A DNA stretch of 64,000 bases from positions 13,968,233-14,032,232 of the forward strand of contig NC_045140.1 of NCBI RefSeq assembly GCF_008831285.2. The letters run 5' to 3'. This DNA comes from Nymphaea colorata (Eukaryota > Streptophyta > Magnoliopsida > Nymphaeales > Nymphaeaceae). A program made the position numbers and the translations under genes. The stretch's first letter is position 1. Each line of letters opens with the position of its first letter. Shown piece by piece: positions 27,878-55,500 of the stretch. The notes beneath the pieces are model-generated. The model was not told where the DNA came from, ran no database searches, and saw nothing but the letters and a program-made list of their open reading frames with translations.

Positions 27878-27931
<54 letters not shown>

Positions 27932-29050: not shown

Positions 29051-29057
29051 CCAAGGT

Positions 29058-29600: not shown

Positions 29601-29711
29601 AACTCAAAGTATGCATCGTCTCCTGCCCAAATAATCATACTTTAGCAATGATTTATGAGATTTTTAATCTTTAGTCATCCGGCAACCACACAAATCGACA
29701 TAAAATTCTCT

Positions 29712-29751
<40 letters not shown>

Positions 29752-30420: not shown

Positions 30421-30479
30421 TCAGTCAGAGACGCGAGGAAAGGGAAACACATTCCCTACAATTCTTTTTTTAATATCAT

Positions 30480-30663
30480 TTTCTCTCTCCCAACCTTTTT
30501 TAAATAACCTTTTAAAACGCGGGAAACTCTCCCTCTCTGTTTCTCTCTCCCATTCTCTGTGATGGGGTCCTCCTCCTCCCCTCCCCCCTCTCTCCATTAA
30601 CGACCTTCTCGTCCCTCCCTCTCCCGTATCTCTACAAACAACCTCTTCACGTTCTCTCCTGAG
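30480..30663 (+). promoter_or_regulatory. Pyrimidine-rich promoter/5' leader of the ELMO gene
   Basis: A dense CT-rich tract (CTCTCCC and CCTCC words) fills the 180 bp before the start codon. Such Y-patch sequence is common in plant core promoters and 5' UTRs. No clear TATA box was seen. Confidence 0.4.
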
Positions 30664-33600
30664 ATGAACATTGATCGCGGGTACGGCGTCGACGTACGGT
30701 CGCTCTCGAGCTCTTCGATCGCGCGCTTTGCTTACGGCTTCACCTCCTCTTCGTCCGGTAATTAAGTTGTCTTCGTGATCAGTTAGTTTCTTCCATCGTT
30801 TTTTGGCTGTCGGATGACTCCTGCTTCTCTGTTCTCTTTTCACTATTTGTCTTCTCTTTTTTTTTTTGTTGATTTTGTCTCTGGACTTCTAGGTTGGGTT
30901 TGGTTCTTGTGTTTTTGATAGATTTTTGGTTGATAGGGTCCTGGTTTTAGGACATTTCCTTTTGAAGTGGTCGTTAAATAAGTTTTTGGAGTTGTTCGAT
31001 CTTGTGTGAGGTTCATTCACTGTAGCAACGGGCACGGTTGTGAATTTATGTAGTTTTTGCGGTCGCTTTTGGTGCCTTTGTAGCTTGGATCTTTTGGTGC
31101 TCTGATTCTTGTTTCTTTGTGTTTGATATTGACTCGTGGGCACTGGAAAATTTGGCGCTACGGTTTTCTTTTTTCAATTGATATGATTCATTTTGGGGAG
31201 TAAGATATTGGATTATTCGTCTTTAAGCTGACGTTCTCTGTGTCAAGTGTCCACTGCGTGAATATTTTCCAATTTCCAGTTCATTTTCGTTCTCTATTGT
31301 TGTTTACCATTTGATATTGAGTCTTAAGGATCTTGGTTGGTGTTTAGAATAAAGGAGAAAGTAGGGTAGATATCTGATCGGCCATTTGTAGATAGTTACC
31401 TTCTAATTCTGCCTTTTGCTTTCTTCTCTGGCAACCTCTGGTTGACTTGGAAAGGTTGTGGCAGCACTGTAGCTAGGTTGTTTTGGTTATGCATGTGAGT
31501 TCCCTCCCGGACTACATGTCTGTGATTAAGGGGCTAGGACAATGTAATTGAATTTCACAACCTGTAGATAAATTCGGTTACGTTTCTGGTTTGTTATTGT
31601 GGAGAACACATTCTAGTTGGTTGTATTATGTCATCAGTATGACCAAACGTGCTTAGATTTATCTTCAGAAAATTCTTAATTCTCATCTTCTAATGAAACC
31701 AAGTTTCGTTGCCAAATCTAAGTTATTTGTTTTCAAAAATTCTATTCATAAACTGTTTGAGGAATGATTTGTCGTTTCTTATTCAGTTTTCATCATCGGT
31801 GGGCTTGGTTTTATTTGTATTGTGGAATCTGTTCTTGACCCTGATCTTCTGCTGCTGATCCAGGTGAAATGGGGAAACTTGATTTATCTTTAGCCGTTCC
31901 TTTTATTACATGTAAATGCATTTTGACATTTGTGAGGCAGGTGATTCACCCTTAGCCTTATATGGACTTAGAAGGGGGAACAACGATACAGAATTTGTAC
32001 GAGAAGGAAGCTAAGTATAATAAGGCCGGTATCTATTGGTTGTCATAGTCCTTTCATGTCTACAATAGCATTTGATATACCTTTTAAAGGGTGCCTTTTC
32101 ACAGCTTCTTCTCATTTGAGACACAGTTGGGAGTTCGTCCATGGGCCTCTATCAGGAGTTTGTTAGAGCCTCTCAGACTCAAACTATGAAATACTAGGTG
32201 CGGCCATAGGCAGGCTTGCACCACAGTGGATCTCTATAAATGAAATGCACCAAAGTGACAGATTATTGGGATTTGATACCAAAATTAAGAGCATCAATGT
32301 TTGAAATGGCTGTACTCATGTATAGTTGGTCAACCGGAACTGTCTTGGCACATTATTTAGTTGGATCAGATTCTATGTTTTCAATAAAATTTGTAATAGA
32401 AGAATTATCAACTTGGTGCCATATATTTGTAATGAATTTTGTGTTTAAGGAGCTAGATATCACCAAGATATTTCCAGTAAGTTTGGCCAAGAAAACTTGG
32501 TTACCACACATTGTTGTTGCTTTGTGTTAGTTGACATGCTTGTGATTGCTGTCCTAGGATGCCTTGATATACTATTACTCAGGTGGGACATGTCGTCCCA
32601 GCAGTCTGCATGCACCCTTCATGTTCTTCAGATATCTTCTGTTAGCTGGTCTTGGTTAAAATGGAAAGCTGTCCAAAAAGTATGTGAGAAGTCCTCATGT
32701 AGAGATGTTCTTCTGCTATAAGAGGCCTGTGAGTTGGATACGATTCATCAGGTAAGCTGATTGTTGTTGCATTTAATCCTGATGAAGGCCATTTTGCTGG
32801 CATTTACACATCATTGCTTGCATAAAGAATTTTTATTATAACCCAACACCAGCCTATTTTGTATTTTGCGAAATGTATTGAGATTCTAATTTGGTCAGTA
32901 TCATTTTCATCCATACCTTTGCCAAATATTACTGCATTGTTTTGTTCTCATCAGTAATGGTAGATATCTTAGATGTGGATACGGTTGCTTCTTTTTCAGC
33001 TAGGTGTTTTCCAAAGTATTCCTTTCCGGCTTTCCCAGATTAGCATGTATTACAAAAATAGCATTGTAATCACGTGTCTTTGATAAGTTCAACTACGTGG
33101 TATTTTTCATGTTTAGTTAGAGTATTGGGTTCTTTTTTAGCCTATTTAGCACCAGGTTGTAGGTAACTGAAATTTGTTTCTTAGGTGTTACTTGATATCG
33201 TCCTTTTGATATATCTGGCACTGGGTCAAATTTCTTGGTTGGTATCAAATATGATATGATTGTAGTTAAATATTCTTCTGATTTGTTCAAAATGTTCTCA
33301 GCTGATGCAACAAATGGCACATTGGCTTCGCGTGCTAAAGGTGTTCGGTGTGTCTGTATCCAACGAAAAGGGACTTATGAACGTATATCCATTAATTTAA
33401 CTGCGCTGCAGGTGAGTTGATGGGTATTGCTATGAACGGATACATAAAACAGCTGGTGCTTATGCTCCATTATGTTAGAAGTTTAGGTTCTCCACATCTT
33501 TTTAATAAGTTTCATGCTGTCTGTTGAACTCTTGCAGGAAGAGCGGTTAAGACGTCTGAAGCATCGGATTAAAGCATGCTTTGATTCCTCACGCCCCGAT

Positions 33601-36600
33601 CATCAGGTGCAGTTTTCACTGTTTTTTTCCATCAGGGTATTCATCCATAGCTTGACATATAATTGATAGATCCAAAACTGGTTTGAGTTGCCTTAATTAG
33701 TAAAAGTTCCATGCTCTTTGTGGTTGGTTGACGAAAGGAAAGGAAGTTTGACCAATAATTAATGTAGTGGACTTGAGGAACTATAGGAAGTTGACTTTCA
33801 TTTGATTGTCACTGGAAACATGTACTTTTTTCATTTTATAATTTCTGATTAAATTGAAGTGGTTGACATGCAAGAAAACATTTTCCTTCTCCCAGCTAAT
33901 GCTTCTCAGTATGCAATTTCTTTCTTGTTTACTGGTTTTTGAGGCATAGCAAGAAATTATGTGCATATAGCTGCTAACAAATAGAGCCACTTTGTCAGTA
34001 GCTTACACATACAGACGTACTGCAGCAATTGAGCATTTTAAGATTCTGAAGTGTTGAGAGACATTTATATTCTTTGAGAAACGAAAAGAAGGAAAAAAGG
34101 ATTGCTCCATCTCACTCGAGGATATGGTACTAAGTTGGCTACAGTACAAACTCAAGTGATTTTCTGTTGGTCATTATTCACGCTACCAAAGCTTGGACTA
34201 CATAATGCTTCTTTTATCATGCTGACAGGAGCTCTTTGTGCCATCTGTTCAACTACAATAACTCAGCACCTTCAGGTCATGTCAGTGCATGTTTAGCAGT
34301 GTTATCAACCAATAAAGTGCTGTTACAGGCTTTCTTTTTTTCCCCTAAATCTATAGTATAATCGACTAATGTGAAAGGATCACTTTTAGATTTGGAACCT
34401 GTTTGCTCTTCCATAGCTGCTTATGCATTTAAAATTGTATTCTTGCAGGAGGCTCTCAAAGCCCTTTGGTCAGCTGCATACCCTGGGGAGGAGCTCCATG
34501 GTTTAATATCAGAACAATGGAAAGAAATGGGATGGCAGGGAAGAGACCCATCAACCGATTTCAGGTTATACTTTTGCACTTGGTTATTTATAATCTTTGG
34601 GCAACCACTAACTGAAGAAAGGAAATGTACTTTTACAGGGGTGCTGGTTTCATTGCTTTGGAGAACCTGCTCTTCTTTGCAAAAACATTTTCTGTAAGGA
34701 CTTTCTCTGCAACAAGTGGTTGAAGTTCTTGTCATTTAATTTCTCTGCTGCAGTTGGCTTTGAGCCTGTCACTCATGGACTGAAAGAAGATATTGGGCAA
34801 GCATCAAGACATGTTATTGTTATATGTTTGGAAACTTGGATGACAGTCTCATTTTTGATACTTGTGAAATTAGTTATTTGAATCATGTGAAAAAAAAAAT
34901 TGTATATGCATGTATTTGGTAAAGACACTTCTACAGATGAAAAGTGTTGAAAACATAGTGTGTTATGGTGGGTCTGGTATCCTATTTAGTTAATTTCTGG
35001 TCAGAATGAACAGTTGGTTGCTTATACATGTACTCAGACATACTGTCTTGCAAGACATACTAAGTACTCATTGCCATGTGTGTCCGACTCTAATTGGTAG
35101 GCGTGTCTTTAGATTTTCGAGAAGAAAAATCTGTTGTATTAGTTGTTGATAACTGTTTTGGTGCTTCAGATCATGCTGATTGGCTGAAGCGTACTTCAGA
35201 TTCCTATTTGTTGTGGAAGACTGAAGGGAAAACTAAGCGTTGGAAATAGAACTGGACGTTTCTGAAGGATGCTGGGTAAAGCTGAGTGCACATAGGAGTC
35301 ATTCTCAAATTAAGTTGGAAGAGCACTAAAATGGGCCCATGATTGAATTTTCTTATCATTATGTGTCAATCTCTATCATGGAATGACAAATTAAATCCTC
35401 TCAGCTCAATAAGTTGCTGTTTTCTGAAACTTTTACATTCTTGATCAGTTTGCCTCCAAATTGTAACATTGTCTACCATGCATCTTGCTTACTGTTGTCC
35501 TCTGCTCAATTAAAGTTGCTCTTTACATTCTTAATGCACGCTTTTAGAGTCTTGACAACAGAATCTTTTGTATGCTAATTATTCAAAGATAAGATTTAGT
35601 GATGTAACTTCCACCTGCTGACTTTATGCTCATTTAGCTTTTGACACCCAAATGTTTGTTTTGATGCAGGCATCTTTCCAATATGTATTAAACAAACAGG
35701 GAGGAAAACGTGCCACTTGGGAGTATCCATTTGCTGTTGCTGGAGTGAACATTACGTTTATGATCATTCAAATGCTTGACCTGCACTCCTGTAAGAACAG
35801 TCATATTCACTGCTTTGATTTGTCCTTGATGTTCTACCTTAAGAGAGCACATTTATTCCAGTAAGAGAGAGAGAGAGAATTGTGCCTACTCAAAGTATGC
35901 TACTGTGCCTCCTTTTATTCAACGAGGCGTAGGTGGTTGATTCCATAGACGGTTCAAAAGGGAGTAGGCCTCTCTCTCTTCCTCTCTCTTTCTCTCCCTC
36001 CCTATATATATATATACACACACAAACAAGTCGGATCCTGATTCCTGACTTGTTACTGACAACTCGTTTTCTCCTCATTCCATGCTAAACGGTGAGTTTG
36101 ATTTTGGAGGGACTTTTCTGACTCGTCTAGGCTATGTATACATATATATGTATCATGTATGTATGTTTGTTTGTACGTATGCATGTACCTATGTATGTAT
36201 AGTTAGTTAGATCTCAAAAGTTACTATCCGAGAGCTCAAATAACTCTTATATATGTTGGTGCGTATTTGTCCTTCTTGTTCAATCTGCCTAATAGAATTT
36301 TGAATTGCTGACGAGATCGTATGTGTTTGCAGCAAAACCAAGGACGTTGATTGGTGCAGTGTTCATGCAAATGCTTGCAGGTTGCTCCAACCTCATTTTA
36401 GTATTGTTTTCTGTTTTCTCCAAGGACACCTTATGTTGCTTGCTGAGAAATTGGAACCGGGAAGTATCTTGCTAACTTGGACATATTGTTTGCTGTATGT
36501 GTGGCAGAGGACGAATGGGCATTCGACCTGCTTTATTGCATTGCTTTTGTGGTTATGGATGCACAGTGGCTGGCAAAGAATGCATCTTACATGGATTTCA

Positions 36601-36787
36601 ATGTAATCTACAGAGAGAGAGAGAGAGAGATGGGGGAATAGCTTGATATTTGATACTGAGTTTATTTTGATGTCGAATGCAGGATGTTTTGAAGTCAACT
36701 CGAGCTCAGTTAGAGAAAGAATTTTTGTTGGAAGATGTATATCGGATTGAAGACATGCCATCATATAACCTGCTCTCTCAGTACTAG
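30664..36787 (+). CDS. ELMO: ELMO/CED-12 domain-containing protein, nine exons, 270 aa
   Basis: Exons read from splice sites and frame: 30664-30757, 33302-33411, 33538-33606, 34449-34564, 34639-34693, 35670-35790, 36333-36380, 36508-36602, 36683-36787. All introns are GT-AG and phases agree, giving 813 nt. The ELMO domain spans about residues 90-255: HQEALKALWSAAYPGEELHG, LISEQWKEMGWQ, DPSTDFRGAGFIALENLLFF, WEYPFAVAGVNITFMIIQML and EDEWAFDLLYCIAF. The protein ends IEDMPSYNLLSQY. W...GWQ...P.TDFRG matches the GAP signature of ELMOD proteins, with the catalytic-type Arg at about residue 130, formed across the exon 4/5 junction. In animals ELMODs are GAPs for Arf-family GTPases. In Arabidopsis, members such as MACARON act in pollen aperture patterning. 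The role here is inferred. The overall match is to the plant At2g44770-like type. Intron 1 is about 2.5 kb. This is the only intact copy of a triplicated unit. Confidence 0.93.
36605..36632. repeat. (GA)n tract in ELMO intron 8
   Basis: About eleven GA units a few bases downstream of the exon 8 donor. A related GA tract sits at the same place in the second copy (about 39766). Confidence 0.85.
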
Positions 36788-37808
36788 CAGCTCTACGTTT
36801 TCCCTGTTGGTGCTATTGCTGATGCAGATCATGCTTCCACTGTAACATAAACTAACAGCGACGATTTTATAGAACTGACCTGTTTCTTTCCCTCCTCTAT
36901 TCTTCCAAGTAGCGTTCTTCATATAATTGAAGAGCCTTATCATGTCATCTTTGTATCTGTATACTACTATTTGGCCTCTCAAAGGGTGGAAATTTGCTCA
37001 TTCCCCTGTGGAATTCTTTTCATGTCCCTCTTATTTAAATGATTTTGTTATTACTTTATTTCATTTTACTTTATTTTATTTGCCCCTCTTATGTTGAATT
37101 GGATGATAAATTCAATAATTGAGTAGTGCAACTTGGGAAGAAGTTTTTTCTTTTGCATATTGAACTTCCGAAACAATCATTTTTAACGCTCGACCACAGT
37201 CCGTTTGAATTTCTCATTTTCCACCCCTAATTGCAAATGGCTTGTATATGGCTTTAGGCCTTTCTCTTTTCTTGTGTTGAATCAGATTACTTATGTAAGT
37301 ATTCAACTGATCTGAATCTGATCCATTCACATTGCCAGATGAACCTTCCACATTGAGTGTCAATTGTCTGAACCATTGTTATGAAAATAAAAAACTGAAA
37401 CCGGTCGATGTTTCAGCGAGTGATTCAGATGAATAAGAAATGGATCGACAAAAGTACTATTGGACACACTTTTGAAAAATTAAAGGAGAATGAAAATATC
37501 AAAACTAATGGACTAGGTTCCGCTTTCAGATTCAAATCCAAAATTCACATTGCACCACATCCAAATATGAATGGATCGCTGAGTATTTATATATTGGAAT
37601 ATTGTTGATTGGATCTTATGAGCTAATGTATGATAAGTGGGACCTAATCTGGACTCAACTGGGCTAGATATAATACCTAATGAGTTGGATCTATTGCATT
37701 CCTAGATCATCGGGTCGAGCGAGTCTGAACGTGGTCCCTGTAATTGGAGTTCATTTCTCACCCGTTCGAATTCCAGTAAATATTAAGCTTGGATGGCCAA
37801 GAACTTTA
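36788..37808. other. ELMO 3' flank/U1 upstream spacer (duplicated sequence)
   Basis: Contains the ELMO 3' UTR and intergenic DNA. Parts recur in the other two units. For example, GATTGGATCTTATGAGCTAA near 37.61 kb matches sequence near 42.01 and 53.29 kb. No gene was recognised apart from the downstream U1. Confidence 0.6.
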
Positions 37809-37861
37809 GTCCTGTATCGTAAAGCTCATGGGGAAGGGAGCCTGGAGAACAGCCATAAAAG
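37809..37861 (+). promoter_or_regulatory. U1 snRNA promoter: USE-like element and TATA-like box
   Basis: GTCCTGTATCG (37809-37819) matches 8 of 11 positions of the plant snRNA upstream sequence element RTCCCACATCG. A TATA-like CATAAAAG lies at 37854-37861, about 31 bp before the RNA start at 37886. The 35-nt gap between the two elements is the spacing known for Pol II-transcribed plant snRNA genes (Pol III genes use about 10 nt less). This is as expected for U1. Confidence 0.7.
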
Positions 37862-37885
37862 GAGATGGCATGTGACAGGTAGATC

Positions 37886-38042
37886 ATGCTTACCTGGACG
37901 GGGTCGATCGGTGATCAGTGAGGCCGATGGCCTAGAGCAACTGCATCCATTGCACTTTGGAGGAGAGTTATTCTCCCCAAGTGGGAGAGTGGGCGTCATT
38001 ATTTGTGGTAGCGGGGGAACGCGTTCGCACGGCCCCCACCAA
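37886..38042 (+). ncRNA. U1: U1 spliceosomal snRNA, copy 1 (5'-end variant)
   Basis: The 157-bp sequence carries the U1 hallmarks in order. The 5' end is ATGCTTACCTGGACGGGG (canonical ATACTTACCTG, which pairs with the 5' splice site). A stem-loop I region follows with GATCAGTGAGG (U1-70K site area), then the U1A loop CCATTGCACTTTGG at 37947-37960. The Sm-site region is ATTTGTGG at 38001-38008. The 3' hairpin is built on GCGGGGG, GCGTTCGC and GGCCCCCACC. The length agrees with plant U1 (about 160 nt). Two oddities are G instead of A at RNA position 3 and T in place of A just before ATTTGTGG. The promoter is in place upstream. It is probably a transcribed variant, though a young pseudogene cannot be excluded. 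It sits about 1.1 kb after the ELMO stop codon. Confidence 0.9.
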
Positions 38043-38114
38043 TACTTTCAAATAAAAGCTTTTGTGTATTATTATATTGGGCCAGGGTCGCCAGTAACCT
38101 CACACTCATGGGTG

Positions 38115-39925
38115 ATTTAGACAAGGTTATTGAATTCGGTTGCTTTTCTGGTTGTTATTAGGGAGAACACATTCAAGTTGGTTGTATTATGTCATCAGTA
38201 TGGCTAAACTTACAGACCTTCTGACGATTCTTATTGCTCCCCTTCTAATGAAATCGAGTTCAATTGCCAAATCTATGTTATTTATTGTGGATAATTGATA
38301 TCATAAACTGCTTTAGGAAGAACTTATCCTTTCATATTCAATGATTACCAGTGTGGGTGGGGCTCAGTTTTATTGGTGCTATGGGATTTGTGCATCACCC
38401 GGTGATCTTGTGCTGCTAAGTTCCAGGAGAAATGGGGGAATCTTGGTTTATCTTTAGCCGCAAGTTGTATTACAGGTAAATGCATTTTTGGCATTTATTT
38501 ATGTGGCAGGTGGTTCACGTTTATCCTCAACTGGAACTAGAATCGGAGACAACAGTACAGATTTTTGTATGAACGGTAAGCTGAGTAGACAAGGCTGCTA
38601 TCTGTTGCTTGTCTTAGTCCTTCTGTATCCACAACAGCATTTGATGTACCTCTTTAAGGGTTTCTGTTCACTGCTCATTCTCATTTGAGACAAAAAGTGG
38701 GATTCCCTTCATGGGTTCTCTCAGCACTTTGTGAAGAGCCTTGTAGACTGTGAAACATTAGGTGCAACCATAGGAAGTTTTGCACCACGTTACTCCTCTT
38801 TAAGTGAAATGCAGTAGCTATTTTTTGCTTCCATGGTTCGAGGTCCATTTTGTATTTTGGTATCCGTATTCAGATTGTGATTTTGATCAGTATCACTTCG
38901 TCCATATTTTGTCTACTGAACTCTTCTATTCACATCCTCTAGATACTTCCCTTCTTAAGAGTATTCCTTACCAGCTTAGTGCATGCTGGAAGATTAGCAC
39001 TGTAATCAGAAGTGTCTAATGATTCATCTACATTTTACTTCTTTTACTTGTAGAATTGGATGCCCTTCTGGCCGTTGATTTTGTCATTTCGATATCTTAA
39101 GTTTCTAAAGTGTTTTGAGGCAGTTACATTTTTTGAACTGATATGAAAAGATGGCAACATAAAGGATTGCTCCATCTGGCTCACCTGCAACGTGCGGAGT
39201 TGGTTCAAGTGAGTTTCTGTTGGTCTTTGTTACCTGAGTTACTAACCTTTTTGTTGTTAATCTTTTGAGTCTACACTAACTGAAGAAAGTAATTGTAACT
39301 TTACAAGGGTGCTGGTTTCATTGCTTTGGAGAACTTGCTTTTCTTTGCAAAAACTTTTTCTGTAAGGACTTTTCTCTCTGAGAAGTGATTAAAATTCTTG
39401 CTGTCATTTAATTTCTCTGCCACTTTTGTATTTGAGGACTGTAACTCAACTGGAATAGGATATTGGGCAAGATCATAACAATGCTATTGATATATGTCAG
39501 TCAAGATCTTATGCGTTAGCAACAAAACCAAGGACATTGATTGGTGCAGTGCTCATGCAAATGCTTGCAGGTTGCTTTAAGATCAATTTATTTAGTATTG
39601 ATTTAAGTTTTCTCCAACAGCACCTTCTGTTGCTTGCTGAGAAATTGGAACCATGAAAAAGAATCGACTGGAAATATACCTCCTGCATATGTTGCAGATC
39701 TAGTGGCTGGCAAAGAAAGAATGCATCATACATCTATGTACTTATATGTATATATATATAAGAAATAGAGAGAGAGAGAGGGAACTTGATCGTTGATACA
39801 GAGTTGATCGTAGTGTGGAATGCCGGAAATTTTGAAGTCAAATCGAGCTCAGTTGGAGAACGAGTTTCTGTTGGAAGATGTATATTGGATTGAAGACATG
39901 CCATGCATCACGTAACCTACTCTGT
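38115..39925 (+). pseudogene. Second ELMO copy (unit B), decayed: exons 5, 7 and 9 remain
   Basis: Sequence from about 38120 follows ELMO intron 1 of the intact gene from about 31560 on, for example TTGTATTATGTCATCAGTAT in both. Exon 1 is absent. Exons 2 and 3, exon 4 and exon 6 fall in deleted segments. Exon 5 remains at 39307-39361, exon 7 at about 39524-39570, a scrap of exon 8 (GTGGCTGGCAAAGAA) near 39702, and exon 9 at about 39825-39917. The exon 5 and exon 9 acceptors have changed (ACAAG; CCG for CAG), and the end of exon 9 is altered. It cannot encode an ELMO domain. Confidence 0.88.
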
Positions 39926-39946
39926 CATCAACTCATCTCTAGCAGC

Positions 39947-40121
39947 CACTGGCAGAGTCAGAAATTTTGGCTGGAGATGGCTGGAAGGGCACTAATTCAA
40001 AATTTCGTCTTTAGAAACAGCTATATATATAAACAAGCAAACGTTTTCAAGCCAGTAATCTGAATAAACATATTTCGTGGGGCTGGTGTGGGCAACTAGC
40101 ATTCATGTGACTTCGCCACTA
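39947..40121. mobile_element. hAT MITE, family 2, with exact 8-bp target duplication
   Basis: The element (175 bp) starts CACTGGCAGAGTCAG and ends GACTTCGCCACTA, so its terminal repeats are CACTGGCAGAGTCA and TAGTGGCGAAGTCA. It is flanked on both sides by CTAGCAGC (39939-39946 and 40122-40129). The intact ELMO unit has a single CTAGCAGC at 36784-36791, overlapping its stop codon, which is the empty site. The 8-bp duplication places it in the hAT superfamily. Confidence 0.9.
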
Positions 40122-40129
40122 CTAGCAGC

Positions 40130-42545
40130 TACACGATTTCCTATTGGTGCTAGTTGCTGCTACAGATCACACTTCCGATGGATCATAAACTAACAGCAAC
40201 AGCTTTGCAGAATCAACCCGTTTCTTCCTCCGTATATTCTTTAACAAGCATTTTTCATATGATTGACGGACCTTATCATGTCATCTTGGTATCTCATATC
40301 CTACTGTTTGTCCTGTCAAGGGGAGGGAACTACACATGTCCAAGTGGAATTCTTGTCATTTCCCATCTTATTTAAATGATCTTGATATTATTTTTACTTT
40401 ATAATGAAGGCTGGATGGTCATTAGATTTACAAGTGTTGGTAATTGGATGCACGTATGCAAGTCGTGCTAACTTGTATATCCAGGGATGTGCGGCTGTCA
40501 ATGTTGGATATCGGCTGGTTATCTTAAATATTTTGATCAGGACAGACCTTAGTTGTCAGTTGGTTAAAATCATTTCCACAAATATTATTACGAGTTTTAA
40601 ACGGTGAAAATTTTCTCTGGTATTACATAATATGGCAAAAGTTAAAAAATGTAGAAAAATCTCAGCAAGTTTCTAGAAAATGCCAAAAAAATGAAAACAT
40701 GCATTTTTTTCACGTTTGTGGCATATTTTTTCCTTTTGGCATCTTTTTAAAAAAACATGGGGTTTTTTTTTTTTCGGCTGACTTATTTTTGACATACAAG
40801 ACGAGACTTTTTCGAAAAAACGGGAATTCTGTGACAATAAAATAAGACTGACTCGAGTTTTCATTCCTATTTATCATATGGGCAATTGTTTTCACGTTGA
40901 TCACAAGTAAAAAGCTGTTGAATTAGAATGAACAACAGAGTAGCAATAAATGTGGTTGTATTACTTTCATGATTTCATAATTGAGAAGAAATTTGAATTT
41001 AGACTCATGGGGATGATAAAAGATCTTTCTCTATAATTTTCAAAGTTGAACGGGATCGAATAAAAGAGATCCTGACGACACTGAGTTGGATTATAAGTTC
41101 ACAGATTGAATAGTACAACGTAGAGACTTTTGTTATTCATATTGAATTAAAAAAAAAAAAAACTCATTTCTACCTCTCACCCATGAATCCGCTTGAATAT
41201 ATAAAATTTTTCTTCGCTTTTGATTCAACTAAGAGTTCTTACTGGTCCAGAATTATCTATGGAAAATTATCCTCTTTGTAACATGAAATAAGTAAGTATA
41301 ATATGCATGAGTTTAATTTGGGACAATTGTGGAAATGCCTTCAGGTCTCTTTGTCCAACAATTGGGTTGTTAGCCTCCTGCTTTTGCCATTAAATCAAAG
41401 CTGTGGGATTTGAGTATATGGCATGGCGTTTGGCCGCAAATGGGTCAGCCCTGGATCCTCATGTGGCTTAGATCTTATAAGAGGATCATAGATATTGATG
41501 AATGGAGGTGCCAAAATTGCTGGCGCCATTCTTCTTGAAGGCGGGGGTTCCTGATTCTATCACACACCTGAGTGCTAAACGAACCTGTCATCAATTGTTT
41601 GATCCGTTGTAATTAAAATGCAAAATTGAATCAAATCAGAGCCAGGTCGCGTTTCAGTGGATCCATGAATTCAGTGATGGAGAAGATTCGAATTGATCAA
41701 AGCAGATGTCATTGGACTGGTGGATCAAATAAATATGCCAATTGATTCAATTGTTGTCATTGGATTCAGGCTGGTTTCAACAACGTTCGTTTGAATGTTG
41801 GGTTTAGATAGCATACAGTTTTGAACCCAAATGCCATGTCAGTACTTGTTTTCGACGTACCTTTGGATATTTGATAGTCCTGAATCTGTCCGATTGCAAG
41901 AAAACTAGACTAGATTTTGGTTTTAGATTCAAATCCAAATTAAACACCACATCCAAATATGAAAGCATCGCTTGATTATGCATTTATTGAAACGTAAACA
42001 TTGCTGATTGGATCTATTGAGCTAGTATATGCTAAGTGGGACCTAGTCTGGATCAACTGGTCCAGATATAGTAGAGTCTGATTTATTTGATCGCAGGTTC
42101 AATTTCAATGTACTGGACAGTGAGTTGAGGTATGAACATCTGAAATGCAAATAGTAGATCTCAGATATCAAAGTGGATATGAAACTCGAAGTACGCTTCT
42201 TGGTGCGTCAAATTTGAAACGGATCTGGTGGATTTGGATCCAGATCCATATTTAAGACACTGTATGGTGCACCGTACTGGACCTGGCCAAGGCTGTGCCA
42301 TAGCTGGGCGCGTTCACTGATCTTCCTTCCTCTATTGATATGTGAAAAGACTCGCCGCCCTACACGATTGACTCGCCAAACCTAGCTTATTGGGTCCACG
42401 TCGAGTGGATCCGAACCTGGTTCCAGTAATGGAATTCGTTTCTTACCCGTTCGAATTTCAATCGACACCAAGCCGTGCAATTTTCAAATCCCGCCGAACT
42501 AATTTAGCAAGAGGTCGGTTAAAGCAACAGATGACGAGACTTTTA
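40130..42545. other. Unit B 3' flank (duplicated spacer with insertions)
   Basis: It partly follows the ELMO 3' flank (TTATCATGTCATCTTGGTAT near 40.27 kb corresponds to 36.94 kb) and the U1 upstream spacer (from about 41.87 kb). Between them lie A/T-rich hairpin-like sequence (40.62-40.86 kb) and unmatched sequence (41.0-41.8 kb). No gene was recognised. Confidence 0.55.
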
Positions 42546-42582
42546 GTCCTGTATGTATCGAAGAGCTGAGGACGTGTAAAAG
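42546..42582 (+). promoter_or_regulatory. Promoter remnant of U1 copy 2, USE and TATA too close
   Basis: The USE-like GTCCTGTATGTATCG (42546-42560) and the TATA-like GTAAAAG (42576-42582) are both kept. The TATA is still about 31 bp from the RNA start, but the gap between the elements is about 15 nt instead of 35 in copy 1. Confidence 0.6.
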
Positions 42583-42606
42583 GAGATGGTATGCAACTGG
42601 TCGACC

Positions 42607-42742
42607 ATACTTACCTGGACGGGTTCGATCGGTGATCAACAAGGTCGATCGGGCAACTGCCTCCTCCATTGCACTTGGGACGAGGGAGAGTGGACGTCAT
42701 AATTTGTGGTAGCGGGGGAACGCGTTTGCGCGGCCCCCACCA
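42607..42742 (+). ncRNA. U1: U1 snRNA, copy 2 (shortened, probably a pseudogene)
   Basis: It begins with the canonical ATACTTACCTGGACGGG. It keeps GATCAACAAGG, the U1A-loop core CCATTGCACTTGGG (42667-42680), a full Sm site AATTTGTGG (42702-42710) and the 3' hairpin GCGGGGG, GCGTTTGC and GGCCCCCACC. It is only about 136 nt long. About 20 nt are missing from the stem-loop II/III region relative to copy 1, and the promoter spacing is disturbed. The best guess is a decayed duplicate of the U1 gene at 37886. Confidence 0.8.
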
Positions 42743-42977
42743 ATACTCTCTTAAATAAAAGTTTTCAACTTCCGTTTCTGTTTTCTTCGGCTATGATTAG
42801 GATACAATGATTTATCGTTAGTTGTGGCTTTCTTGATGTCTTCTTTCGGATTTATTTTAGTATATGAGAGTTTTGTGTTCTTGATGAATGAATAAAGGTC
42901 CGGGCTTTCTAGTCTATAAATTCTAAAACTCAAAGAAATCGAGTCGATGCCGTAAATCAAAGTTTGGAGTGGCTGCC

Positions 42978-43332
42978 TGTTGGGTCAAGTGTAGTTGCAG
43001 CGGAGGATGCACGTAGTCGCCTGCACAGTAACTTCTTTAACCAGCTGTGATGGTCCCCTGTAAAGCCAAACAGATCAAGTGCGAGGGAGGAGAAAATGAG
43101 CTGATGTTAGATTTTTGGGGTTTTCTTCCAAAGGGCTGCTCACGGCTCATTCAATGTTCAAAAGAGCTTGCTAGGAATGTAAAGCCCAGCCCTTTAGGTT
43201 TTCCCAAACCCTAGCTGCAGTTACGTGAAAGATTTCTTAGGAGATATTTTAGGAGCACTTTTAGATTAAAATCTAGTAACTGCTTTGCAGTTACTAGATA
43301 TTCGGATAGGGCTCAATGGCCACTATCCAACA
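42978..43332 (-). repeat. 3' LTR of the copia element
   Basis: 355 bp, beginning TGTTGGGTCAAG and ending CTATCCAACA on the + strand. It pairs with the LTR at 49531-49886 at about 96% identity and is preceded by the target duplication CTGCC. Confidence 0.95.
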
Positions 43333-43497
43333 TCTCCCACTTGGCCATGAGACCGCTAGTTTTCTTCCACTATATGTGGGTTTTCTTTATTCAATTTGTT
43401 ACGTGGTTTTCCTTAATTGGCTTATCCAACGTAACCTAAACTTTTTTCAAGGTTTACAGCGAGGTTTTCCATTCAATGGTTTTTCCTTCGCAACCTT

Positions 43498-46400
43498 TCA
43501 AATATATCTCAGCCTCATATGAGTTACATGTTTTGAAAACAAGTCTTCAGATATTCCATTGGTTAAGGGATCAGCCACCATATCATTTGTAGGCAAATAT
43601 TCAACTGAGATTTCATTTTTCTCGATCATTTCATGAACATAATAGTATTTCACCATTATATGTTTACTCTTTGAACTAACAGCTCCATTTTTCATAAGAG
43701 ATATTGCTGCCTGATTATCACAGTACAGTTGGACCGGTTCATGAGCAAGATCTGATTTCAAGTCTTTCAAGAACCGATTTATCCAGACAGCAAAAATAGT
43801 TGCTACATTGCATGCTACATACTCTGCTTCCTGTGTCTACTGAGCAACACATCCCTGTTTCTTACAGGACCAGGCTATCGCCCCACCTCCATAGAGAAAA
43901 ACATACCTTGAAGTGGATTTACTATCATCTTTGCATCCTGCAAAATCTGCATCGGAATAGCCAACTAAAGTTAGCTCATCTGCTTGATAAGACAATTTCA
44001 GTCCTTTTGTTCCTTTAATACACTGAAAAATTCTTTTGACTGCTTGCCAATGAGGCCATCCATGATTACTTTGATAACGACTTACCAGACGGATAGGAAA
44101 ACTTATGTCTGGTCTGGTACAAAGCATTAAATACATCAGACTACCAACCGCTTGTGCATATGGAACATTTAATTTTTGTTGTCCTTCACTGGGACAATCA
44201 CTCCTACTTAAATTTGCTCCTTTAGCTATAGGAGTCCTAATTGGTTTGCAGTCAAACATACGAAATTTCTTCAAGATATAATCAATATACCGTTCCTGGC
44301 TTAAACTCAGGATTCTTGAGTTTCCATCTCGAGTGATTTTTATTCCTAATATATAGGATGCTTCACCCAAGTCCTTCATTTCGAAATTTTTGTTTAGCCA
44401 AGTCTTCGTTTTGTATATCATGTCGTTATCATTTCCTGTTAGTAATATGTCATCAACATATAATGATAGAATACAGAAAAGACTCCTACTTTTCCAAACG
44501 TATATACAGTGGTGTAGTTGGTTTGCTACAAACCCAAGTTTTGTAATTGCTTTGTGAAAAGCAAAATACCACTGTCTCGGAGACGGTTTCAGTTCATACA
44601 ACGATTTATTCAGCTTGTACACTTTGTCTTCTTTTTCCTTGATGACATATCCCTGCGGTTGAGACATATATATAGTTTCTTTCAACTCACCATTCAGAAA
44701 AGCAGTCTTCACATCCATATGACAAATATCCAAGTCATAGAATGCCGCTATAGCCAAAATTATTCTGATTGATGCGAACTTTGCAACCGACGAATAGGTC
44801 TCTGAGTAATCAATTCCTTCCTTTTGAAAAAAACCTTTCGCCACTAGTCTGGCTTTGAATTTTTCAACTGATCCATCAGCTTTATACTTCTTCCTTAGCA
44901 CCCATTTACATCCAATGGGTTTTCTGTCATTAGGAAGATCTACTAATTCCCAGACTTTATTCTTTTCTATGGATTCAATTTCTTCATCCATAGCATTCAC
45001 CCAATCCGACGATTCATGCGAGCTTACTGCTTCATCATATGTCAGATTGTTAGACATTTCGTCAATATCTACTAAATAGCATAGCTCCTCTGCCAAATAT
45101 ACATAATAATCATTTAAATATGAACGATGAACTCTAGGTCTTTTATGACCTGATAACGTCTGAGATGACGAGGTATTCATATCAGTTGGTTCATTGCCTA
45201 ACTGATCTTCAGTCGGTTCATTTCCTAACTGTTACTCAGACGATTCTTGCTCAATTGGTTCATTGCCAAACTGAACTCCAGTCGGTTCATTTTCAAACTG
45301 ACCTCCAGTCGGTTCATTACCAGACTGTTCATCTGAATAAATCAGATCATCAAGTGTATCATTTCGATATTCCACTGGATCATAATCTTTATTATTGAGT
45401 TCTTCTATGAACTCTACATCTCTGCTTTCTATAAGTCCCATAGATGAATGATATAATCTGTAGCCCTTGGATCCTTTTGGGTATCCAATAAATATACATC
45501 TCACTGATCTATTATCTAGTTTATCCAGTTTCGGATCTAGAATTTTCACGTGTGCTACAGATTCCCATCTCCTAAAATATCTCAGATCTGGTTTTATACC
45601 AGTCCATCTTTCATAAGGAGTGGTTGGGACTGCTTTGCAGGGCACTCGGTTTATTGTATACATAGCTGTCAACACAGCTTCTCCCCAAAAAACTTTTGGT
45701 AATTGTGTTCTTGCCAACATGGATCTCACCATGTTCAAGAGGGTTCTGTTACACATCTCAGCCACACCATTTTGTTGTGGTGTCCTAGGCATTGTCTTTT
45801 GCCTATTAATTCCAAGGTCTTTGCAGTATTCGAGGAATTCACTAGAAGTGTATTCTCCTCCTCGATCAGACCTTATGATTTTGATATTCCTTCCAAGTTG
45901 TCTCTCGACTTCATATTTGTATTCCTTGAATTTCTCAAGTGCTTCAGATTTATATCTGATTAAGTATATGTAACCAAATCTTGAGAAGTCGTCAATAAAA
46001 GTTATGAAATATAACTTGCCACTATGAGTTTGGATCCTGAAAGGTCCACAGATATCAGTATGAATTATCTTTAATAATTCAGTGGCTCGAATTACTTCAG
46101 ACGGAAATGGTTTCCTTGTCATTTTTCCGTATACACATGACTCACATTTCGCAAAATCATTTATATTTATGTCAGGTATTAAACATTGTTGTGTTAGAGT
46201 CTGTATCTTTTTTATGCTTATATGACTTAATCTTTCATGCCATAAGTTTACATTCACACTCATTGCACAATCGAAATAAGCAGAACTTGAAGCTTCATTC
46301 ATGTCATTCAGTTTGAACATACCATGTTCTTTTACAAATTTTCCACCAAACATGAACCTTCCATGTTTTCCCACTGTTACTTTCCCTGGAATAAAACGTA

Positions 46401-47610
46401 CTTCAAAACCTTTCCCAATTAGTGCAGGAACAAACACTAGATTCCTCCTTATGGAGGGGACATACAAAACTTCGTTAAGTACAACACTTGTACCCCCAAC
46501 ATTTAGACGATATACCCCAATTCCCATGACATCACAATAAGAGTTGTTTCCCATATACACTTTGTGGGTTTCCGGACTCAGATTTTCCATGTGGATCACT
46601 CATTCTTTTGTCTTTGCAATGTGACGAGTTGCTCCTGAATCGACCCACCATCCAGTTAGATCTCCATCTGCAAACAAACATTCTGACACGACACAGATGA
46701 CTTCTCTGTCAAAGTCTCCTTGAGGCTTCCTTCTGTTGTAGTTGCCCCGACCAATGTTGTCTTTCTTACTCGAAAATTTTGTCCTGCAATTCTTCTTTAT
46801 ATGTCCAGGCTTCCCGCATCTGTAGCATTTCACTACAGTTCTTTGAGATTTCTTAGTACCTGCATAATTGCCCTTGAACTTGCCATCATTTCGATTTTTA
46901 AATTGTTTTGGTTTTATATGTACATGACTACTAGCAGGTTTTTCCTGGACTGTCATCAACTCTGCTCTATTTCTCTTGGTCAGACGTTGTTGCGGTAGAG
47001 CTAACTGTATAGGAAACTTTTCTAAAGTAAGAGTATCAAATTGAACACTCAAAGCAATAACTGCCATATCCCAAGAAGGAGGTAGGCTGTTCAGGATTGT
47101 GCTGATCTGCATATTGTCAGATATGACATTCCCTACCACGGCTAAATCTTTAGCCATGACCAACATCTTATTAACATGGTCCATTACATTATCTGACTCT
47201 TTCATCCTATAGAAATTGTATTGTTCTTGCAGTAACTGTATGTGCATCGCAGTCATGGTATTGTATTTAGAAGCGATAGTATCAAACATATCCTTGGCAG
47301 TTGGACAATCCTCAAAAACACTGATTTGATCATCTTCCATGAAGGCTAACATAATAGTTTTAGCCATTAGATCATCAGAAGAAAATGACTCATATGTCTT
47401 TTTCTCTTCATTTGTGTGTTTGTCTCCTAAAATTGGAAAAGGCTCGTTGATCACATAAACGAGTCTTTCTAAGGTCAAGACCAACATTATTCTACGCTTC
47501 CATGCATGAAAATTTGTCCCATTGAGTTTTTCAGTCTTAGCTAATTCAGAAGCTCCCACTCTTGATGTCATTTCTAAATTAATTTTCGATGGCAAGTAAA
47601 GAACAATCAT
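43498..47610 (-). pseudogene. gag-pol coding region of the copia element (fossil)
   Basis: Approximate parts on the minus strand: gag with zinc knuckle about 46.7-47.6 kb; protease and integrase (HHCC-type HERLSHISIKKI and CESCVYGK, then the core FIDDFSRFGYIYLI) about 45.2-46.7 kb; reverse transcriptase and RNase H (LYCDNQAAISLMKN) about 43.5-45.2 kb. The reading is interrupted about three times, so no single polyprotein is encoded. Confidence 0.92.
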
Positions 47611-49517
47611 AACAAAAGAAAGAAGTTTACAATATTACATCAAGAGGCCTTAAAGAAAGAGTTCTAGAGCATATACATGAATCTCAAACAACATTCTAAA
47701 ATAATATTTAGAATAACAAGACATTAGATTAAATATGAAACATACATAATCTCTTTTCAGAGTTATTATCAGGGCCCTTCTTTTATAATTGTCTAACAAG
47801 CTTATGGGTGTCTCTATGTAATTCACTTAAAATCGTGGTTTCCTACTGAAATTGCAAAATAATTTTCTATAACCCTCTTTTAGTAATTTCTAATAATTTG
47901 AGGGTACCAAAAAGCAATTTCTTACAAAGTTCCAGGTTTTTGATGAAAATGACTTTCGCGAGCCTCTTTTGGAAGAGTTTTTCCGCAAAAAAGTTGCGGC
48001 ATGAAATTCTGGAATTTATAACAGCCTTTTTGAGAATTTAGCTAACATGGTGGACTATTTTTGTAATTTTTAACTTTAACTATAAAAGCCTCTCTTCGCC
48101 CGTTTTTCCTCATTTTCACTTTCATTCTCTCTTTCCTCTCGAGAGTTCTGCCCTCTCACGAAACCCTAGCAGAGGGTTTCACCTCCCACGCCACCATCGC
48201 TGCCTCTTCCCATCTTCCACCACCGTGACTGAGAGAAGGTGTCCTCCTCTATTCTACCACACGAAGGGTTGCAGGAGCAGAGTTTACCAGCAGAGAACAT
48301 ATGAGGCCCCTGCTCGAGCTGACTTGATTCTATTTCTACCGCACGGCTATTTGGGCCGCGGCCTCCTCTGTGCTTGCTTTGTCTTTGTTGTGAGGAAGAC
48401 AACCTTCCCCAAAACCAGAAGCAGATAAACGACAGGATGGGCCGGCATTTTCATATGGATGTCAAATGCCGTCTTCCTCCTTCACCCAAGTCGCCTCCCA
48501 TTGTTTTCAGCAAGAGAAGATCTCTGCTCCTCGCACTTGGAAGACGACTGGTTTTCAGTCGATTGGACGTCTGCTTCTGCTCAACGGTAGAGATGGACGG
48601 GTCGAGTTAAAAAATTAGGCCCAACGAAAAAAAATTTCCTTCATCGTTGGGTAAGATTCACAAACTGTGTAGAGAGAGCAGAGGTTGTATATTTCCTTCC
48701 CTCCTTCCTGTTCTTTTTTTTTTTTGGTCTATGTATGTCGAGCAGAGCAGGCTCTGCCTCCTGTTCTACCGTTTGCCAGAGACGTAGAAAAAAAATTACT
48801 CCAGTAGTGGAATTCTTTGGAGACAGATCCTCTACGAGGGTCCTGATCTAAAAGTTTTTACAGAGCCATAGGGCTCTGTCCTGGTCTCCGTCTCTCGCAG
48901 ACACAGAGAACAAAAAGCGACCTAATGCTATCATGCTTTATGCTGTGATCTATTTACTGTAAATAAAGCATAGGCGAACCTTTGGCTTTCCCTTCTATTA
49001 CCGACGATAGGCAGAGAGAAAAGAAAAAAATAACGAAGTTACAGAAACGAAGCAGGTTTACATTTGATTATGGGTTCATCGAGAAAGAAGCTTCGGTGAA
49101 CTTCCAGCTGCGACAGAGGGTTCGTCTCAAGGGAGTTCTGGTCAAGGTATAAGTTATTTCCTTATTTTCTAGTAAGGCTTTCTATTCTGTGAGGCCGACA
49201 ACGCTGGCTGTCATCAGCAGCGTTGTCTGTGTCCAGACCGGGAAACTCTCTATCCTCTGGAAAAACACAGGCGCAAACAATATATGCTAAAAAAAATTTG
49301 GCAAAGTATATTAAATCGCCTTAGTCTTCTGGATTTACATGCACAGATATTATATCTAGCAAACTGCAAATGACATGCTTCATTCAGATTAACTTTTGAT
49401 TTAGGCATCGTTCCTTGCTTACGGCTAACATGCTTCATACATTCAAGCTAGTTTCTATCTGTGCATTGATTTCGTCTGAAGTTACTTACCTGTTTCAGAT
49501 GATAATTTCCCAACGAA
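47611..49517 (-). other. Long untranslated leader of the copia element
   Basis: About 1.9 kb lie between the primer site and gag, long for a copia leader. On the + strand it includes a promoter-like stretch, TATAAAAG at 48081 followed by a CT-rich leader-like tract and AAACCCTAG near 48.16 kb. This could be captured or nested sequence. No conserved protein was recognised there. Confidence 0.5.
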
Positions 49518-49530
49518 GCTCTGATACCAC

Positions 49531-49886
49531 CATTGGGTCAAGTGCAGTTGCAGCGGAGGATGCACGTAGTCGCCTGCACAGTAACTTCTTTAACCAGCTG
49601 TGATGGTCCCCTGTAAAGCCAAACAGATCAAGTGCGAGGGAGGAGAAAAGAAGCAAATGTTAGATTTTTGGGGTTTCCTTCCAAAGGGCTGCTCACGGCT
49701 CATTCAATGTTCAAGAGAGCTTGCTAGGAATTTAAAGCCCAGCCCTTTAGGTTTTCCCCAAACCCTAGCTGCGGTTACGTGGGAGATTTCTTAGGAGATA
49801 TTTTAGGAGCACTTTTAGATTAAAATCTAGTAACTGCTTTGCAGTTACTAGATATTCGGATAGGGCTCAATGGCCACTATCCAACA
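49531..49886 (-). repeat. 5' LTR of the copia element
   Basis: 356 bp and colinear with 42978-43332, with about 13 substitutions and one single-base length difference. The outer end is followed by the target duplication CTGCC at 49887-49891. Confidence 0.95.
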
Positions 49887-52570
49887 CTGCCATCATGTAT
49901 GGTTGGTCAACCCGGACTGTCCTGCTTTAGGTGGATCAGATTCTATTTCTCCATATAATTTGTAATAGAAGAATAATCAATTTGGGAGCTAAACATTGCC
50001 AAGATACTTCCAGTAGTAAGTTTTGACTAAGAGAACTTGGGCCATGCGTATTATCTCTTGCATAAGACATACGCATGTTGTTTTCTGCTGGTTAGTATGC
50101 TTGTGATTGCTCTCTCAGATGCATTTGGCCTACTATATAACTCATCTAGGGAATGTTGTCCCAGCAGACTGCTTGAACTGTTCATGTTTTTCTGGGATCT
50201 GCCTTAGATGGTTTTGGTTGAAAGTAAGAGCTCTCTAACATGTGTGAACGGTCCTTCTGTTGCTTCTGCTGCATGATGCATTTAATCTTGATGGAGGCCA
50301 TGCATGTTGTTGGCATTTACACATGATCACTCGAGTCAAGAATTTTTATCACGTCCCAAAGCCACCCTACCCTAATTTGCATCCATTGTGATTGTGCTCA
50401 GTATCACTTTTCATCCATATCTTTGTCAAACATTACTAAACTGCTTTGTTCTCATCAATTTCAGTATATATCTTAGAGCTGGATAGCATTTCCAGGTTCT
50501 TGTTCACCTCTGAGTAATTTTCCATTCTTAAGAGTATTCTTTTCCCACATTTGTATATGTTAGGAAATCAGCATTCTAATCACAAATGTCTTTAGTGAAT
50601 TCATCTATATGGTATTTTTTTTTATGCTTATTTAGAACTGGGTGTTTTTCGTTGGGGCCTATTTCGAACATTTCCTAGTTCTTAGATCACTGAAATTTGT
50701 TTCTTATGTGTTATTTGGTATCATCCTTTTCATATCTGTCAGTGGGTGAAATTTTCTCAAGTATACTTGAGAGTTTCATTGTAACTAAATTTTTTTGTAA
50801 TTATTAGAAGATGTTCTTCTCAGCTGATGCAACAAGTGGGACATTGGCTTGGCGTGCTAAAGGTGTTCGGTATGCCTGTATACTATGAAAAGGTACTTTA
50901 CTTAAGAACGTATATGCATTAACTGCGCTGGAGGTGCGTTGATAGATACCAAGTATGAACAGATACATACAACAGAAGGTGCTTATGCTCCATGGTATTT
51001 GTATTTTAGATTCTCCAAATCTTTTTAATAAGTTTGATGCTCTTTGTTTAGCTATTGCAGGAAGAACAATTAAGACATTTGAAGCATCAAATTATGGCAA
51101 GCTTCAATTGCTCACGCCCTCATCATCAGGTGCAGTTTCACTGCTTTTGTCTATCAGGGTTTTCATCCATAGCTTGATATAAAATTGATAGATCCACAAC
51201 TGGTTTGAGTTGCATTCACCGTTTCCATCCCATGCTCTTTGTGGTTGGCTGACAAAAGGAATGGAAGTTTGATATTTGACTGGTGACTTAACACTGCTCG
51301 AGGAACTATAGGAGTCCAACTTTCAATTGATTGCCATTGGAAATGTGTACTTTTTTACTTAGTCTCTGAATGGATTGAAGTGGTTAACATGCAAGAATTT
51401 TTTTTTTCATTCTGGAGCCAATGTTTTTTGGTGCATAAGTTCTTGCTTGTTCACTGGTTTTGGTGCATGGCAAGAGATTACTGTGCATATAGCTGTAGAC
51501 AAATAGAGTCACTTTGTGAGTAGCTTACACACATTGACATAATGCAGCAACTGAGCATCTTAAGTTAAATCTAAAGCATTGAGAGGCAGTTATGTTCTTT
51601 GAAAGTGGAAAAGAAGGAACAAAGGGACTGCTCCATCTGGTTCATGTACAACGTGCTAAGTAAGTTGACTAGACTACAAGTTCAAGTGAATATTTGGTCT
51701 TTATTCACATTAACAAAGCTCGAACTACATAATGCTTCTTCTATTTTCTTGACAGGAATTATTTGTGTCATCTATTCAATTGTAATAATTTAGCATCTGC
51801 TCGTTGTATCATCACATGTTTAATAGTGTCATCAACTAATAAAATGCTGTCACATGCCTTCTTTTTTTTTTTGTCATTTGACAAGTATTATCAACTAATA
51901 TGAAAGGATCACATTGTCATTTGGAACTGGTTTGCACTCCCGTAGCTGCTTACCTGTTCAAAATTGTAAATTTGCATGAGGCTCTCAAGGCCCTGGAGAG
52001 GAGATCAAAGATTTAACATCAGAACGATGGAAACAAATGGAAAGTATGATCATGCACTCGAGTTATTATCCTTTTTGGAGGTCGACTTTTGGTCATTTAC
52101 TAACTGGAAAGAAAATGTACTTTTATAGGGGTGCTGGGTTTATTGCTTTGGAGAACCAGCTTTCTTTGCAAAAACATTTTCTGTAAGGACTTTCCCTGCA
52201 ACAAGTTAACAAAATTCTTCTTGTTATTTAATCTCTCTGCAATGGTTGAATTTGAGCCGCTACTGGGCAAGGAACTTGCTACTGGTTGGCGGTCATATTT
52301 TTGATAATTTTGAAATTAATTATTTTAATTGTGTGTGAAGATAATGTATATACTGGCATCTGGCAGATACAGTTTTACAGATGAAAACGTTTAAACATCA
52401 TGTTGTTAGTGTGTCAATATCCTTTTTGGTTTAGTTTTCTGCTCAGATTGAAACCAATTGGTTAGACTTTACTTCAGTTTCCTGTTTGTTCTGGAAGACC
52501 GAACGCAAAGCAACATGTTCAAAATTGTTCAATTTGGTGTAAAATATGGTAGCGGAAAGCTGAATTCTGC
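49887..52570 (+). pseudogene. Third ELMO copy (unit C), decayed: exons 2-5 recognisable
   Basis: From the copia edge, sequence follows ELMO intron 1 of the intact gene from about 32308 (CATGTATGGTTGGTCAACC against CATGTATAGTTGGTCAACC). Exon 2 lies at 50824-50933 and has an in-frame TGA at 50886. Exon 3 lies at 51061-51129 and is still open. Exon 4 lies at about 51977-52050; it has lost its acceptor AG and is shortened. Exon 5 lies at 52129-52183. Homology continues into intron 5 to about 52.5 kb. Exons 6-9 are absent, so it is not functional. Confidence 0.88.
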
Positions 52571-53430
52571 ATGCGACTGATATTTTGTACAATTTTAGAC
52601 TTCCTAGATCATCAACACCGAACAGATCTGGTTTGAATAAGGTTTCAGGGCTTTTCCCTTTTAATTTGTTGTATAGAATCAAAACTTCTTATGTATTTAG
52701 CTTGATGTGGAACAGGTGGGCATTTTGCAGTGAATCCATCAATTCAGTAATTCAGGTGCATAAAATATTATGAATTGATAAAAGTATGTATTTTTTGTAC
52801 ACATTTTTGGGTAAGAAAAGAGGAAAAAAATATAAAAGTGATAAAAAAGAAAATCTTCAAAACATGAAAAAAAAAACTACAATTGAAGTGTGGTTAGATA
52901 TCTGACAATAATGTGTCTACTTGAACCTCTCATAAACAATTCAAATACCTTGGCAATTGTTTTTGGAATCTGTTAGATACTTGACGGTTCTGAAACTGTC
53001 CGATTGTCAAAATCTGGACCAAGTTTGGGTTTCAGATTCAAATCCAACATTCAACTTGAGGCAGGGCTAGAAATTTTCAGCCAAGGAGCATTCATTCAAA
53101 AGAAACATAGGTACAAAGAATGTATAAGGGGCATGAGGCAAATAATTAAGGGGCACACAGTATATTAATAAACCAATTGTTGGAAACGACCAGTCTGAAA
53201 ATAAATAAAATTTGTGGAGCTGTGTGGGCAACTGCCCCACACATACCCGCAGGTGGCTCACGTTTATATGGTACGCTAAACTGTTGATTGGATCTAATGA
53301 GCTAGTATAATGCTAAGTGGGACCTAATGTGGATGAGCTGGTCCAGATATAGTACCTACGAGTCCGATTTATTTGATCAAAGGTTCAATTGCAATGTACT
53401 GGACAGTGAACATCTGAAATCTAAACGCAC
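52571..53430. other. Unit C 3' flank (duplicated spacer)
   Basis: It follows the spacer between ELMO and U1 of the other units. For example, CTGTCCGATTGTCAAAATCT near 53.0 kb corresponds to 41.89 kb, and GGATCTAATGAGCTAGTATA near 53.29 kb to 42.01 kb. A family-2 MITE lies at 53059-53243. No third U1 gene is seen before the match ends at about 53.43 kb. Confidence 0.65.
53059..53243. repeat. hAT MITE, family 2, copy
   Basis: Starts GAGGCAGGGCTAGAAATTTT, has GGGGCA and CAGTCTGAAAATAAATAAA inside, and ends near GGGCAACTGCCCCAC. It is related to elements at 39.95, 55.33 and 56.50 kb. Confidence 0.65.
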
Positions 53431-55331: not shown

Positions 55332-55500
55332 CGCAGTTCCCAGTGGCAAGACAAAAAAGGGAGGCACAAATTCAAAAAATTTTAACCATAAAATGATTGA
55401 GGGACACTAAGCAAACAATTGAGGGACACCGATATATGAATATGCACATTATCGGATACCACCAATATGAAAATAACTAAAAATGCATGCGACTGTATAG
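55332..55500. repeat. hAT MITE, family 2, copy
   Basis: Shares AAATTCAAAAAATTTTAACC, ATAAAATGATTGAGGG and CACCAATATGAAAATAA with the element at 56.50 kb. The ends are decayed. Confidence 0.6.

Follow-up and report, generated by a model that had tools for sequence, protein, structure and literature searches.

In the 64,000-nucleotide stretch of Nymphaea colorata DNA analysed here, referred to as the window, a segment that starts in intron 1 of an ELMO-domain gene and ends shortly after a U1 snRNA-like gene downstream of it occurs as a tandem triplication (units A, B, and C). The best explanation, to which we assign a probability of roughly 0.85, would be an ordinary segmental tandem duplication of this stretch, with U1 carried along as a passenger, followed by decay. 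The coordinates of the features are collected in the table.

Table. Features of the ELMO/U1 array and of the copia element, in window coordinates
Feature	Position	Strand	Evidence
ELMO-domain gene of unit A, intact as modelled, 9 exons, 270 aa	30664..36787	+	GT-AG introns, open frame, Pfam
Part of unit A repeated in B; starts in ELMO intron 1, ends shortly after U1	31571..38062	+	blastn A vs B
USE-like GTCCTGTATCG at 37809-37819 (3/11 mismatches) and TATA-like ATAAAA at 37855-37860, U1 A	37809..37860	+	
154-nt U1 snRNA-like gene in unit A, with AUGCUUACCUG at the 5' end and an altered loop I	37886..38039	+	Rfam U1, 101.5 bits
Decayed unit B, in which traces of ELMO exons 5, 7, and 9 and of part of exon 8 remain	38133..42765	+	
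134-nt U1-like gene in unit B, lacking stem-loop III	42607..42740	+	Rfam U1, 89.4 bits
Unit C, probable left piece; aligns with A from ~32228; last 5 bases are the target-site duplication CTGCC	42903..42977	+	
copia LTR retrotransposon; LTRs 42978-43332 and ~49531-49886; CTGCC on both sides	42978..49886	-	
Unit C, right piece; what is left of ELMO exons 2-5, plus fragments of the spacer 3' of ELMO	49887..53409	+	

The initial annotation had predicted three colinear head-to-tail blocks, with B following directly after the U1 gene of A. Comparison of the window with itself using blastn returned both the A/B and the A/C diagonals as predicted. The A/B alignment opens with 31571–32249 against 38133–38813 (74%, E = 9.9e-115) and closes with 37856–38062 against 42577–42765, with further blocks in between. 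Units A and C are colinear over 32316–35019 and 49893–52463 (70%, E = 0). A looser blastn search gave the A/C blocks 32316–32684 against 49893–50246, 32765–34766 against 50274–52258, and 35179–35247 against 52457–52525. It also gave a tail block, 37603–37695 against 53282–53373, and B/C matches that stop at 53409. Overall, 31571–38062 of A is matched to 38133–42765 of B, and 32316–35247 to 49893–52525 of C, whose tail extends to 53409. The homology of unit B begins about 70 bp past 38062, the last A/B-homologous base beyond U1 A, which agrees with the predicted placement and fits a head-to-tail duplication. Searches for a further unit on the + strand gave no match at E ≤ 0.1, either for 53400–58500 against A and B or for 26000–30700 against B.

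The ELMO gene of unit A was modelled with exons at 30664–30757, 33302–33411, 33538–33606, 34449–34564, 34639–34693, 35670–35790, 36333–36380, 36508–36602, and 36683–36787, stop codon included. All introns are of the GT–AG type, the frame is open, and an in-frame stop lies upstream at 30598. Residues 74–239 of the protein match Pfam ELMO_CED12 (PF04727) with E = 9.6e-53. If the arginine of FRGAG is taken as Arg127, counting from it gives Asp121 and Ala129 in MCR numbering. In an excerpt of PMC8483735, ELMOD proteins with Ala129 fall nearly all into the C clade, with five exceptions. Counted off the FRGAG arginine in this way, the residues would place the predicted unit A protein among the angiosperm ELMODs of the C clade. 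Two further protein-coding features were seen in the window: an Exo70 gene at 10724–12763, which is a single 679-aa ORF and apparently intronless, and an exon-like ORF at 58520–58885 with a match to MAP65/ASE1 (E = 8e-07). Taken with the copia RVT_2 elements and the many introns of ELMO, these features mark the window as presumably nuclear DNA of an angiosperm.

As modelled, the ELMO gene of unit A is the only intact one among the three units. This is in line with the earlier description of A as intact, B as decayed, and C as truncated: the open nine-exon model is confined to A, and the ELMO copies of B and C are broken. Neither of them retains the open frame with splice sites required of a working ELMO gene. 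Exons 5, 7, and 9 and part of exon 8 are recognisable in unit B; exons 2–4 and 6 are gone. In place of AG, the acceptor site reads AA at exon 5, AA at exon 7, and CG at exon 9, which also terminates early. Unit C keeps exons 2–5, with an in-frame stop in exon 2, a truncated exon 4, and one base missing from exon 5; its exon 3 retains an open frame together with AG and GT. Exons 6–9 were not found in the right piece of C, and exon 1 gave no blastn match at E ≤ 0.01 in B or in the right piece of C. A left breakpoint in intron 1 would give such remnants lacking exon 1. A short insert absent from A lies at 39943–40116 in B and at 53055–53260 in C; the two are alike by eye, with a CAGAAATTTT-like start and a GGGCAACT-like end. 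The B insert lies immediately after the end of ELMO and is flanked by two TAGCAGC motifs; in blastn at E ≤ 0.01 it matched only itself, which does not bear out the likeness. The insert of C is weakly matched by 55392–55482 and 56603–56645.

The element that borders the right piece of unit C is a copia LTR retrotransposon, with two LTRs, a target-site duplication, and gag, integrase, and reverse transcriptase domains (Retrotran_gag_2, rve, and RVT_2) lying in three separate ORFs. Its LTRs differ at 13 of 355 sites (K2P = 0.038). Since the CTGCC duplication flanks the element, the two flanks adjoined each other before the insertion. Taken by itself and with its anchor at the junction, the left flank can be aligned with A as far back as 42903 (32228 in A), and its score was reached by 0, 0, and 1 of 200 dinucleotide shuffles for three anchor choices. 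An earlier control that included the right piece (0/200) was not independent, because it was partly driven by right-piece bases that match anyway. As the left flank aligns with A, copia was most likely inserted inside unit C and is no marker of its border. A truncated unit C is present as annotated, but the copia flank is most likely not its edge, since C probably extends left to about 42903. When the left end of C was aligned without the right piece, the score was reached by 7 (versus A), 2 (versus B), and 162 (versus the A/B spacer) of 200 shuffles. Weak matches of this end to A 31532–31724 and B 38113–38279, the same part of the unit start, are at odds with the anchored placement. Unit C may thus begin like B and carry an internal deletion, or it may be that only the placement to the right of 42903 holds. 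A second copia-type reverse transcriptase ORF (514 aa, 475–2019) lies where the window begins, close to an array of 69-bp tandem repeats at 1–280. Other repeats in the window are five tandem copies of a 158-bp unit at 17749–18540 (97% matches) and a dispersed repeat at 4533–4706 and 25318–25493 (82% alike).

Outside the exons, the K2P distance is 0.274 over 1740 sites for A/B and 0.304 over 2298 sites for A/C. For the segments common to all three units, picked by the analyst from the blastn blocks, the values are 0.296 (AB), 0.295 (AC), and 0.305 (BC). Sites shared by one pair are divided 43:50:41 (AB:AC:BC) among 434 columns. Shared sites and distances revealed no order of the two duplications; the star-like pattern indicates that they were close in time or that their order has been erased. 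One short tail, 42002–42123 versus 53282–53409, speaks against a pure star, with B and C closest (87.5%). A three-way count over the whole alignment (AB 267, AC 173, and BC 87 of 1268 columns) was dropped, because it included badly aligned columns. The non-exon divergence between the units exceeds that of the copia LTRs by a factor of seven to eight.

U1 genes had been assigned to the first two units, and the Rfam search concurred. U1 A and U1 B both exceed the Rfam U1 gathering threshold of 69.5 bits and are the sole Rfam matches in the window at gathering threshold. A permissive search of 37000–54000 at E ≤ 1 also gave A and B only, with no U1 remnant in unit C. U1 A starts about 1.1 kb past the ELMO stop codon, on the same strand as ELMO. 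At its 5' end, AUACUUACCUG is replaced by the sequence listed in the table, a change of position 3 from A to G (A3G). Its loop I, GAUCAGUGAG, does not match the Rfam consensus GAUCAaGAAG. Loop I of U1 is the site of U1-70K binding. Loop II of U1 A matches CAUUGCACU, and CAUUGCACUU in loop II is kept in both copies. The Sm-site region of U1 A, AUUAUUUGUGG, is one base off AUAAUUUgUGg. U1 B has the consensus at its 5' end and in the Sm-site region (AUAAUUUGUGG), and its loop I is changed less than that of A. Stem-loop III is missing from U1 B, where 27 model positions are replaced by 1, leaving it short of the four stem-loops.

The USE-like and TATA-like elements of U1 A start at −77 and −31, with 35 bp between them, about where plant snRNA genes carry such elements. 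The USE-like element of U1 B is interrupted by 4 extra bases and lies 15 bp from a TATA-like GTAAAA. The USE was scored against an 11-letter form; that printed in an excerpt of PMC545797 is RTCCACATCG. On the + strand of the whole window, 71 of about 64,000 11-mers have three or fewer mismatches to the USE. Such matches are so rare that the placement at U1 A is unlikely to be due to chance, which suggests that U1 A may descend from a promoter-bearing gene. The plant 3' box, CA(N)3-10AGTNNAA in an excerpt of PMC5079582, is absent from U1 A and from U1 B. The monocot promoter element RGCCCR was uninformative: within 400 bp 5' of U1 A it occurs once, at −226 on the minus strand, and U1 B has none. 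Scans of a viral and a genomic contig collection for canonical U1 5' ends, meant to supply sequences for comparison, found nothing. An origin of U1 as a processed (retro)pseudogene was considered less likely, given the USE-like and TATA-like elements upstream of A and the absence of a poly(A) run directly 3'.

With these results in hand, the array can be accounted for as follows. The stretch from ELMOD intron 1 to just past the downstream U1 would have been tandemly duplicated twice, most simply via unequal or illegitimate recombination; unequal crossing-over, as first proposed, would be a fair mechanism. Because the left breakpoint falls in intron 1, the extra ELMO copies would have arrived without promoter and first exon and then decayed, and we infer that exon 1 was never part of B or C. 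U1 would have travelled as a passenger, degenerated since then in A and B, and been lost from C along with the 3' end of that unit. Judged by their sequences, the copies are most likely no longer standard U1 genes, and presumably not working ones. The copia insertion would be much later. Since the left breakpoint lies within the ELMO gene, the duplicated unit is a stretch of DNA and not a gene pair. The repeat unit had initially been delimited in much the same way, with ELMO intron 1 and U1 as its ends, and this stands. The accompanying view that the joint duplication of ELMO and U1 is remarkable is not supported, as the breakpoint cuts ELMO, B and C hold no intact ELMO copy, U1 was not found in C, and U1 A and U1 B both deviate from the consensus in conserved parts; the snRNA genes of Arabidopsis likewise occur in duplicated clusters.

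An original unit that held the whole ELMO gene, exon 1 included, is a less probable starting point. Unit B would then have worked for a while, and exon 1 would have been deleted later, between the U1 of A and intron 1 of B. The retained B exons differ from those of A at 21 of 219 sites, which is below the 0.228 found for non-exon DNA, and the three differences in exon 5 are all synonymous. However, B shows a single amino-acid change in exon 7 and five in exon 9 ahead of the point where its reading breaks, exon 1 is unmatched in B, and the homology of B sets in right behind the U1-side homology of A. The excess similarity is also not clearly beyond the effect of constraint on A alone, for which P is 0.23, 0.04, and 0.015 at expected ratios of 0.5, 0.6, and 0.65, respectively. 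Constraint on A alone explains the similarity well only if it was strong, so B may possibly have held a working ELMO copy at one time. As to how the units were placed, their divergence makes an assembly artefact unlikely. Three separate insertions or an assembly error in place of tandem duplication can be given hardly any weight, as the units are contiguous, in the same order and on the same strand, with blocks 70–82% identical, and nothing was found in favour of such an origin.

The passenger role of U1 has to be weighed against the idea that U1 A, and perhaps U1 B, are working sequence-variant U1 genes kept after the duplication, A with an altered end for pairing with the 5' splice site (A3G). 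We regard this as improbable. The two copies differ at 22 of 134 aligned sites (versus 0.228 for non-exon DNA, P = 0.045). The difference falls to 8/85 in the 5' end and Sm/stem-loop IV blocks (P = 0.001), which were chosen after seeing the alignment. This lower divergence means that the U1 copies may have been constrained for some time after the duplication. Retained function would also agree with the USE-like and TATA-like elements of A and with stem-loop I of A, in which all 11 pairs are standard when set against the Rfam structure. By contrast, 13 of the 21 pairs in stem-loops II and III of A combined are standard and 7 involve a gap; for stem-loop IV the count is 7 of 10. Whole-molecule folds are no better than those of shuffles (z = −0.56 and −0.59). 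When seven pieces were folded separately, two stood out in favour of function: stem-loop III of A, equalled by 4 of 200 shuffles, and stem-loop IV of B, equalled by 2 of 200; for the other five, 14 to 88 of 200 were as good. Against function, loop I is altered in both copies, stem-loop III is missing in B, the USE-like element is imperfect in A and split in B, and the 3' box is absent. In a narrower form, U1 A would be an expressed divergent U1 beside ELMOD, with A3G and a changed loop I, that favours 5' splice sites having C at +6, the base with which an A3G end would pair. This is very unlikely. In favour of working variants, the active U1 genes of Arabidopsis average only 87% identity in an excerpt of PMC545797.

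With segmental duplication and a passenger U1 as the preferred reading, the ELMO/U1 array calls for no new mechanism. It illustrates how a breakpoint inside a gene could yield promoterless copies with an snRNA gene carried along. The U1 copies allow snRNA decay to be read against neutral DNA of equal age. A literature search, narrow in its wording, found no paper on an ELMO domain together with U1 snRNA. In the excerpt of PMC545797, Arabidopsis has more than 10 copies of each of the five major snRNAs. Its 14 U1 copies include 10 that are likely active and some others that are more likely pseudogenes, and the U1–U4 clusters multiplied by duplication in the view of the authors. This picture would accommodate a U1 gene that was duplicated and damaged next to one coding for a protein. 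The present array resembles those clusters, as far as the excerpt describes them, in its multiplication by duplication of DNA segments and in copies that are likelier pseudogenes. Unlike there, where U1 is paired with U4, U1 here adjoins a protein gene that the duplication has cut through. The ELMO domain of unit A also invites comparison with the Arabidopsis ELMOD C clade, in which a duplicate, ELMOD_D, has decayed and is likely a pseudogene of ELMOD_C (excerpt of PMC8483735). In contrast to ELMOD_C and ELMOD_D, there are two partial tandem copies here, the first of them with a U1 gene.
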